Below are positions 43,317 to 59,699 of a stretch of DNA of 64,000 bases, in pieces. Numbering within the stretch: the stretch's first letter is position 1; each line of letters starts with the position of its first letter. The position numbers and the translations under genes were made by a program. The stretch is from Crambe crambe (taxonomy: Eukaryota > Porifera > Demospongiae > Poecilosclerida > Crambeidae), in contig OZ004586.1 in NCBI GenBank assembly GCA_963924555.1, positions 1,116,001 through 1,180,000 of the forward strand. The letters are read 5' to 3'. Under the pieces are notes generated by a model. That model saw only the letters and a list, made by a program, of their open reading frames with translations, did no database searches and had not been told where the DNA came from.

Positions 43317-46300
43317 ATGTCTGCGCTGCATTATGCATTCTTCTTGCTTTCTTCATTCCAATTATTGCTGGGTGAGTGACTAATTTTCTAACATTCCTTG
43401 GCTGGAATGTAGCCATCCACTCTGCAGGTATGCGTCCGACTTCTGGTCCCTGCAATCGACTTGAAATACTGACGCCTTGTGAAGACTCTTTTCCCATGTG
43501 CTTTCCTGCGGACCTCTTGTGCAATGGATTTAGAGACTGTAGGAATGGTAGTGATGAGAGAGACTGTAATGGAAGTAAGTGTAGCTAGCTAGTTACCAAT
43601 AGAGACCTGGCTGTCTTGATTTTGGATATGCAAAGTAACTTACTTAACTAGCAACATGGATAGATTTTGCACAAATCTCACCAATTTGCAGAAATTTGAA
43701 TATGCAGAAATTTGCAGAAATTTCAAACTTTAATTTTAGGGCAAAATTGTCCCAGACCAAGAGCTCCATGTCGAAGAAATGTCAGCAAGTGTATATTCAA
43801 TGCACTTGTGTGTAATGGAGTGTATGAATGTACAGATTTAAGTGATGAAGAATATTGTAATAGTGAGTATGAAATGTGTGAAGTTTGGTTGTTCTAGAAA
43901 GATACTCAGATAGCTAGCTAGCAACACAATATAGCTATAACTATAAGCTGACTATTTGCTTCCATGAAGACTGCATGGCTTAATTGTTCATGTTGTGTGA
44001 TGACCCCATTTTTAGCAAATGCTATCAATACCACTTGTCCTGAGGCCGAATGTCCTGGAGCTAGAGGCACTTGCCTGACTTCTGTTCAATTCTGTGATGG
44101 AGTCTATGACTGTCCTGGTGGAGCTGATGAACTTGCCAATGAGTGTGCAAATTCAACTCGTATGAGTCATACAACAAGTTAGTTTGAAAAGCTATAAAGA
44201 ACTAACTCTGGCTAAATGTAGTTACAGTTAATATTCTCTCTATAGCTCCCGAACTAGCAAATCCTGACTGTCCCAATGGAACGATGGTATCTCCATGTGA
44301 GGATTACCTCCCTGGGTGCATCAACCAAAGCCTCATCTGCAACTTAATGGCCGACTGTCCAAATGCAATGGATGAATCAGTAGAAATGTTCCATTGCACA
44401 GGTACATAGCAGTAGTAGTATATAAATACAATGTATAACTGAAGGTTACTTTTATGACTTGGTTTCTTCAATGCCTACATACGTACAGATCACGAGTTGC
44501 TTCCCTTTGGTGAGGCAGTGGGGGACACACTGGGAAGCCAAGGAAGGGTCAATGAAGCAGTTGGCCCTATCAAACTCCCTGCTCCAATCATATTCTACCA
44601 AAGACAAGAAAGAAGTCTATTTGTAAGTATGAATAGTAGTTTGAACAATCTACATACTACCATACAAGTGGGAAGAAAATGGGTGATTATTAAATATTTT
44701 ATCACCTATATAATATATACATGATTCTATATTATAAATCCCTCTACGTAGGTAATGAGCCACTCTTGTAGTTAAATTATCCATCTTAACAATGCAGATA
44801 TCGACCAACGGAGTTATCTCCTTCAGAGCAGGTTTTACAGAATTGATGATCAGGCCCTTCCCTCGTAAACTTCCTCTTTCACCTTCTCAGTCCCTTCTTC
44901 CTCTTATAGCTCCTCTATGGAGTGATTTCCACTCGGGGTCTGTCTTCTACCGAGTGGTCACCAATGCCGATGAATCCATGCTGGAAGAGATTTCAGAGTT
45001 AATCTCCACTAGAAACCTGAACTTTGAGAATTTCCTTGCCAGAGCTGGTATCATTGTTACTTGGTTTAACTCCAACACAGCACCTGGTCCATCCCAGATC
45101 TCTAATATACGGGTATATGGTTTATTTGGTTTACTTTATAGCTAGTGCTAAAAAAATTAATTAACTCTTTAAGCAGTAAATTGAGGTCCATGTTCCAAAC
45201 TGTAGCTCAGTATAAAACAAAATTCACTCGTCAACTTTACAGATTTATATTGATCAAGTAACTAATGGTGTTAAAAGCCACTAACCTGTGGCTAGTAGGT
45301 AGCAGATGAATAAATTCTTATTTTATTTGCAGTTATAAAGACCATGCCACCTGTACTTTCTTATGGATAAGCTTAATACTGTATTTTGCATAGGAAATGT
45401 TTCTCATCTAGCCTGCATTTTTATCATTTCTAGGTCACTTTTCAAGCAGTACTCATGACTGATGGGATATCTTCGTTTGTTTCCTTCATTTATGTGGACC
45501 CTGAAGACATTGTGAGGAATCAAGATAATGTCCAGGTTGGATTTGATGGTGGTGATGGAGAGAACGGTATAATTTTGCTTCCTAACCATCAGCATCGCTC
45601 ACCTTCCCACCAACCACAGCAAAGCAACGAATTACTTCAGGCTATAAATAGCTTTCGTATTGATGGTATGTGTGAGAGTATAACTACTAGAGAATGTGTT
45701 AGCGCTGACGGTGGATCAAAGGTCATAAGGCTGTTTGTAGAACTGTGATGATAATGATGATACTGTATTCAATTTCTAACTGTGTGAGAAGGGGGAGAGA
45801 GAGATTTATCTAGCTAGAATTGAACTAATAGAAGACCAATTTCACTGTTATTCAGGTGCCTGTTTGACTGCGATTTCTGCCGGTAGTGCTTGTGGACTAG
45901 AAGCTGAGGCAGTGAGGTGTGACACTGCAATGGCCATCAATTCCACTGCTACTTCTTGTCAATGTAGGCGTCCAGGATTTTTCTACAAATTCTCAACTGC
46001 AATATGCGAAGGTAGCCATTGTAATGAATAGAGTAGTCAACTACAAACTTAGCTTAACTCTGTGGAACCTCAGACACTTTGGGATCAGCTTATTCAGCTA
46101 GCTATTTTGTCCTTATTTTTTTCCTTAATAGATTCTTCAGAGGATTGATTCCTGTGGAGGTTTTTTTCTCCTATTTTCTCCCCTATAGCTACATGTATAA
46201 TTATTACTATTTTTTCCTATACGTACGTCCTGAAGAATGTAGCTAAGGAGTTCACAAAAAGAGGTTCTACTCTAGAGCTATGCACAAAAAGATAATCTTG

Positions 46301-59699: not shown

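Follow-up and report, generated by a model that had tools for sequence, protein, structure and literature searches.

The RTK1 and RTK2 genes

The window analysed here is a 64,000-nucleotide stretch of the Crambe crambe genome (C9:1116001-1180000; the genome comprises 143 Mb in 119 contigs). Its plus strand carries two complete receptor tyrosine kinase genes, which were built by hand from the raw sequence and annotated with Pfam and a scan for transmembrane (TM) helices. RTK1 (A1; 43317-50276) has 21 exons and encodes 1098 residues in the order putative signal peptide, four LDLa-like repeats, NIDO, six-cysteine (Cys6) module, three EGF domains, TM helix, juxtamembrane segment, tyrosine kinase and Pro-rich tail. 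The LDLa-like repeats occupy exons 2-5 (43428-44401), each in phase 1-1; the NIDO domain occupies exons 6-8 (44489-45665), a block entered and left in phase 1; the Cys6 module is exon 9 (45856-46011, phase 1-1); and the calcium-binding EGF domains are exons 10-12 (46353-47390), again in phase 1-1 each. Exon 13 (47470-47605), preceded by an intron of 79 bases, encodes the TM helix, and the kinase exons together with the tail extend from 47873 to 50276. Pfam placed NIDO at residues 257-441 (E = 1.2e-21) and PK_Tyr at 704-981 (E = 3.4e-85), with EGF_CA in three stretches. The N terminus is hydrophobic by eye and falls below the cut-off of the TM-helix scan. A custom spliced aligner fed with the RTK1 protein recovered all 21 exons, the stop codon excepted. 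Just upstream of RTK1, on the minus strand, lies an open frame of 493 residues from stop to stop (window 41384-42865).

RTK2 (A2; 50944-59699, plus strand) has 23 exons; its 1272 residues comprise, in order, a putative signal peptide, a Ser/Thr/Pro-rich stretch, NIDO, Cys6, LDLa-like repeat, a second NIDO and Cys6, three EGF domains, TM helix, tyrosine kinase and a short tail. The mucin-like stretch is exon 2 (51100-51639), in which Ser, Thr and Pro together account for 42% of the residues. Both NIDO domains, encoded by exons 3-5 (51974-53114) and exons 8-10 (53935-55262), were found by Pfam and by local HMMs, which were built from proteins collected in this analysis. The EGF domains follow in exons 12-14 (55762-56798), the TM helix in exon 15 (57044-57176) and the kinase with its tail at 57600-59699. 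The Pfam matches comprise NIDO in two stretches (E = 9.9e-37), EGF_CA in three and PK_Tyr at 955-1234 (E = 1.4e-85); the hydrophobic N terminus, evident by eye, also appears in the TM-helix scan. An intron within the second NIDO contains a (GA)n run of about 315 bases (window 54572-54888). In addition, one intron of each gene holds a similar inverted-repeat stretch noticed by eye (window 48007-48200 and 56370-56590, from near 'ctatttgc...ttcaccttgccccttgatcattcac'), which looks like a small transposable element.

The preliminary description had given RTK1 as LDLa x4-NIDO-Cys6-EGF x3 and RTK2 as mucin-like-NIDO-Cys6-LDLa-NIDO-Cys6-EGF x3. Pfam bears out the NIDO, EGF and kinase parts of both genes. 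At an E value of 0.01 it supports LDLa in two of the four RTK1 repeats and gives no match for the LDLa-like repeat of RTK2; the remaining LDLa calls derive from the arrangement of cysteines and from an HMM for which these very repeats served as seeds. For the Cys6 modules of either gene no Pfam match was printed, the output giving best stretches only. The closing of the exon phases was borne out as well: all introns of both genes are GT-AG, and internal stops are absent.

Several further features are common to both genes. A single strong TM helix separates the ectodomain from the kinase. The length is a multiple of three, and the entry phase is 1, for every three-exon NIDO block, for the mucin-like exon of RTK2 and for the exons of the LDLa-like, Cys6 and EGF modules, and so the ectodomain modules are symmetric phase 1-1 cassettes. 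The TM exon is likewise entered in phase 1, and it lies 79 bases (RTK1) or 245 bases (RTK2) beyond the last EGF exon. Judged from these gene models, one transcript probably spans each gene from NIDO to kinase.

NIDO receptor arrays in the genome

What had been described as a tandem pair proved to be the opening of a five-gene tandem array (A1-A5), and nine NIDO receptor genes in total lie in two arrays. RTK1 and RTK2 are real and intact members of a set larger than first reported. A3-A5 follow downstream in the same orientation. The window includes the 5' part of A3 (60392-64000, plus strand), namely a signal-peptide exon (60392-60458, with the ATG at 60392) and SRCR repeats; past the window end the gene continues with two NIDO domains, two EGF domains, a TM helix and a kinase (C9:1180976-1188411). 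The last SRCR match ends at C9:1180850 and the first NIDO exon begins at 1180976. The kinases of A3-A5 lie at C9 1186.7-1188.4, 1202.2-1204.1 and 1214.9-1216.5 kb, and local HMMs assign to each gene SRCR repeats, two NIDO, two EGF and a kinase, the overall order being SRCR-NIDO-NIDO-EGF-TM-kinase. The A5 model, which excludes the SRCR part, shows two NIDO, two EGF_CA and a kinase by Pfam. Past A5, in the opposite orientation, two SRCR domains, NIDO and Cys6 occur with a long poly-Val/Leu stretch (C9:1217800-1220800, minus strand); no kinase was matched at this place, which is perhaps a fragment or a non-kinase paralog.

The second array (C9 3.82-3.91 Mb, minus strand) comprises four receptors, B1-B4, all with EGF domains and a kinase; local HMMs counted five NIDO domains in each of B1-B3 and four in B4. 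The models of A3-A5 and B1-B4 are homology-guided and crude in parts. A third array, C (C9 5.73-5.77 Mb), combines SRCR repeats with a kinase, and local HMMs gave no NIDO match there. For fn3, Calx-beta, reprolysin and disintegrin, the models were built from only one or two seeds each, so that the absence of these domains from the locus scans says little. The aligned kinase copy C2 of array C contains in-frame stops (C9:5752336-5752488, plus strand) and is either a pseudogene or a mis-aligned exon. Elsewhere, at two places on C13 (2570396-2593562 and 2643018-2660242), a NIDO is followed by a kinase exon of the family 16-22 kb further on the same strand. The 8 kb directly upstream of one of these kinase exons contain EGF and no NIDO; the two places may represent additional NIDO receptors whose ectodomains are long.

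Size and ectodomain variety of the kinase family

An exon-17 probe matched the genome at least 110 times at E below 1e-13, with 150 of 237 candidates scored; as a count of exons this is a minimum, and it may include duplicate haplotypes or pseudogenes. The best nine of the 150 scored matches (72-100% identity) were exactly the nine NIDO genes, and the tenth had 71% identity. A search of the genome with the PK_Tyr profile (121 of 1944 candidates scored) did not have the genes of the RTK1/RTK2 array among the matches listed.

The regions upstream of seven other family members (L029-L035; 4 or 8 kb each) were scanned for ectodomains. Three SRCR domains and Fz were found in L032, Fz in L033 and EGF in L030 and L031. 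Of the Ig-like exons of L035, one of the three sent to Pfam matched, under the curated cut-off, and nothing was recognised on the coding strand of L029 and L034. In the L029 stretch (C13:2876371-2884370, minus strand), upstream of one of the nearest kinases, three open reading frames share a repeated module some 200 residues long; the two sent to Pfam had no match at E 0.1. Since the ectodomains of these relatives are SRCR, Fz, EGF or weakly Ig-like, the kinase defines the family better than NIDO does.

Conservation of the kinase and selection

The earlier statement that the kinase motifs are intact in RTK1 and RTK2 holds: the G-loop, HRDLA(A/T)RN, DFG and APE are present in both, and the VAVK of RTK1 was found by reading the sequence, the pattern search having matched another place. 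The G-loop, HRDLA(A/T)RN and DFG are kept in all nine NIDO genes and APE in six, with ALE in B2, B3 and B4. A juxtamembrane tyrosine occurs in a similar setting as NEY in A1-A5, SDY in B1 and NDY in B4; the models of B2 and B3 are poor in this region. RTK1, RTK2, B1-B3 and C1-C3 have the tail motif Y-L/M/I-D, which is not kept in A3-A5 (DYFAL) or B4 (DYLTI). By eye the motif aligns with EYLDLS of a fish FGFR (P0173), whose tyrosine we take to be the PLC-gamma binding site.

The comparisons of gene pairs indicate purifying selection, which is looser in the ectodomain except in B2/B3. Pairs drawn from A3-A5 gave dN/dS values of 0.23-0.40 for the NIDO and EGF ectodomain, against 0.07-0.18 for the kinase domain (0.17-0.24 untrimmed). 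For B2/B3 it was 0.33 in the ectodomain versus 0.59 in the untrimmed kinase part, which includes the poorly modelled juxtamembrane, and for C1/C3 it was 0.22 in the kinase domain. Between A1 and A2, where dS is saturated, dN reached 0.56 across the last NIDO-EGF part, against 0.21 across the kinase. None of the A3-A5, B2/B3, C1/C3 and A1/A2 comparisons pointed to positive selection.

Related receptors in other animals

Sponges have many receptor kinases and, according to the Eph-ephrin paper PMC6485061, few signalling ligands that can be recognised. Among the 209 proteins listed as matches in two protein searches (the best 120 of 838 and the best 120 of 7287, only candidates sharing most words being scored), at least two, both from demosponges, combine NIDO with a tyrosine kinase. 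This joint presence was read from a precomputed Pfam column and then confirmed individually for the two proteins. The NIDO-kinase architecture is therefore not unique to the Crambe genome. The expectation that bilaterians offer no example was upheld within the same 209 proteins. Outside rows of the kinase tree described below, bilaterian ones included, are without NIDO in 45 of 47 cases according to the Pfam columns.

The first of the two is Amphimedon queenslandica P0004 (UniRef A0A1X7UA...), which resembles RTK1 and RTK2 in having NIDO, a TM helix and a sponge kinase of the same clade. Nevertheless, it has three Sushi domains where RTK1 and RTK2 have EGF; against NCBIfam it gave only sub-cut-off matches. 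The second is Geodia barretti P0139 ('RYK, partial'), likewise with NIDO, TM and tyrosine kinase in one predicted protein, but partial and in the order NIDO-SRCR-Fz-Calx-beta. More broadly, demosponge receptor kinases of the same clade, with SRCR, Fz, Sushi, PSI/IPT, Ig or ADAM ectodomains, are mostly 43-56% identical in the kinase, and all six sponge proteins examined have a YLD/YVD tail tyrosine. A search with the RTK2 NIDO region (7991 candidates scored) gave one significant relative, an alpha-tectorin, and it missed both P0004 and P0139, which marks its reach as short.

Among solved structures, the closest single-stretch kinases were AXL, MER and MET, followed by FGFR1, the top row being a two-copy EGFR chain; no solved NIDO structure was found by sequence search. 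The ectodomain of MET is Sema-PSI-IPT and that of the TAM receptors (AXL/MER/TYRO3) is Ig-FN3. An ordinary MET or TAM receptor was rejected as an identity for RTK1 and RTK2, which by Pfam lack such ectodomains and have NIDO-EGF instead. No NIDO receptor kinase is named in the available parts of PMC8242945, PMC9381480, PMC8380372, PMC8662651, PMC6374515, PMC12716839 and PMC5039420. NIDO and TyrKc are both among the domain symbols of one Halichondria receptor-model figure, as far as PMC8242945 was accessible, and this figure may include a NIDO-kinase model.

Phylogeny of the kinases and NIDO domains

A kinase tree of 58 rows unites the nine NIDO kinases in one clade (97/92), the sister of which is the pair of SRCR-only kinases C1 and C3 from array C. 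The resulting 11-row clade (100/100) sits within a 45-row clade (100/100) whose named outside rows come from Amphimedon, Ephydatia, Halichondria and Geodia, all demosponges; seven rows are without a name. The rows of Dysidea, also a demosponge, and of Oscarella lie outside it. The kinase of P0004 falls in an Amphimedon group of seven rows, the other six of which come from receptors headed by SRCR (five) or ADAM (one). Forcing P0004 to group with the nine NIDO kinases was rejected (p-AU 0.00025), as was forcing P0139 (p 0.024) or both together (p 0.0004); the constrained groups were chosen after inspection of the tree, and P0139 is a long branch. These kinase trees reject a single NIDO receptor kinase family across sponges. 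Of the sponge-restricted family proposed earlier, the sponge setting is supported, in that all named rows of the kinase clade are demosponge; by kinase, the NIDO receptors of the three sponges do not form one clade.

The NIDO tree (40 rows, including only the eight best-scoring other NIDO loci of the genome) places the 28 NIDO domains of these receptors on one side (100/100), with the Amphimedon NIDO on another branch. Joining the latter to the 28 was narrowly rejected (p 0.047), while the test did not reject joining the Geodia NIDO to them (p 0.233). Repeated capture of NIDO by sponge receptor kinases is likely, though not proved, on these comparisons. Separate capture leans mainly on the kinase tree, because the NIDO tree is less decisive.

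Discussion

RTK1 and RTK2 are probably functional single-pass receptor tyrosine kinases, belonging to a large demosponge kinase family whose ectodomains would be swapped as exon cassettes. The best reading is that the NIDO-EGF ectodomain is the new variant here and that the shuffled sponge receptor-kinase family is already known. We infer ligand binding, dimerisation and docking for both proteins. The rod of NIDO and EGF domains, with SRCR in the paralogs, would bind a matrix or cell-surface ligand and cluster the receptor. Once clustered, the kinases would phosphorylate one another at an activation-loop tyrosine (Y876 in RTK1, Y1130 in RTK2), and then the juxtamembrane and tail tyrosines (Y676 and Y991 in RTK1, Y926 and Y1245 in RTK2) would recruit SH2 or PTB proteins. 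New ectodomain modules could be added or exchanged without breaking the kinase, since they are phase 1-1 blocks and phase 1 is also the entry phase of the TM exon. Such an exchange of cassettes would account for the differing NIDO counts (one, two and five), the mixed SRCR-NIDO forms and the separate gain of NIDO in other sponges. A similar picture of shuffling fits the sponge GPCR-tyrosine kinase fusions, for which the available part of PMC12716839 proposes domain swapping or convergence; there too a kinase is joined to unusual receptor parts, but these are seven-helix receptors, unlike RTK1 and RTK2. A bolder and tentative reading is that these are plug-in receptors of sponges, in which a kinase chassis of more than 100 copies accepts phase 1-1 ectodomain cassettes, NIDO was plugged in at least three separate times, the result is a species-specific recognition repertoire, and the tail tyrosine signals as in FGFR.

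What the ectodomains recognise admits two readings. Outside these receptors, NIDO occurs in matrix and mucin proteins, and nidogen is a secreted protein with NIDO, G2F, EGF, thyroglobulin and YWTD repeats. RTK1 and RTK2 have NIDO and EGF in common with nidogen, but they possess a TM helix and a kinase, which nidogen lacks, and show no Pfam match to G2F, thyroglobulin or YWTD. RTK2 resembles MUC4 in its layout; the two share a Ser/Thr/Pro stretch, NIDO and three EGF domains before the TM helix, the kinase of RTK2 standing where MUC4 has a short tail. It is quite possible, if short of probable, that both receptors are matrix sensors of this type, in which NIDO and EGF bind basement-membrane-like proteins and the kinase reports the contact. 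In the accessible part of PMC5039420, the NIDO of MUC4 is reported to matter for invasion, with a disturbed nidogen/fibulin-2 contact postulated, and its EGF domains are drawn engaging ErbB receptors. MUC4, however, has AMOP and VWD and no kinase, and Pfam found neither AMOP nor VWD in RTK1 or RTK2; moreover, the only significant relative of the RTK2 NIDO region among the scored candidates was the alpha-tectorin. As a hypothesis, matrix sensing is plausible.

Another possibility, which we hold tentatively, is immune recognition or allorecognition, whereby a lineage-specific tandem repertoire would recognise microbes or conspecific cells rather than matrix. The tandem arrays and the abundance of strong kinase-exon matches in one genome are consistent with this, as are the SRCR repeats in A3-A5 and array C and the faster change of the ectodomain relative to the kinase in A1/A2 and A3-A5. 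The Halichondria receptor survey also counts SRCR receptors and tyrosine-kinase cytokine receptors, in the available portion of PMC8242945. Nevertheless, the ectodomain dN/dS of the recent copies is well under 1, and the matrix and mucin proteins in which NIDO is otherwise found point the other way.

The history of NIDO could also differ from separate capture. A single ancestral NIDO receptor kinase, its kinases homogenised by gene conversion within each species so that the kinase tree misleads, is unlikely. The kinase groups do largely track species, and the grouping of the Geodia NIDO was not rejected. However, the Amphimedon NIDO was barely rejected and is followed by Sushi rather than EGF, and the kinases of A1, A2 and B4 differ by 20-28% from their best match here, near-identity being confined to A3-A5 and B2/B3. 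Finally, a modelling artefact, with ectodomain and kinase halves of separate genes wrongly joined, is highly improbable and was rejected, given the closed phases, the EGF-to-TM gaps of 79 (a single short intron) and 245 bases, the recurrence of the NIDO-EGF-kinase order in seven more loci and the NIDO-TM-kinase order in predicted proteins of two sponges.

What makes the reading of RTK1 and RTK2 as cassette-built receptor kinases interesting is that a large kinase family is combined with exchangeable phase 1-1 ectodomains and with a NIDO that was probably gained more than once. The nine related genes carry between one and five NIDO domains each and offer a concrete set for work on ligands and function. 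With matrix- or microbe-type ectodomains interchangeable on one kinase chassis, receptor diversity would grow by exon exchange, and this bears on how animal receptor kinases acquired their ectodomains.
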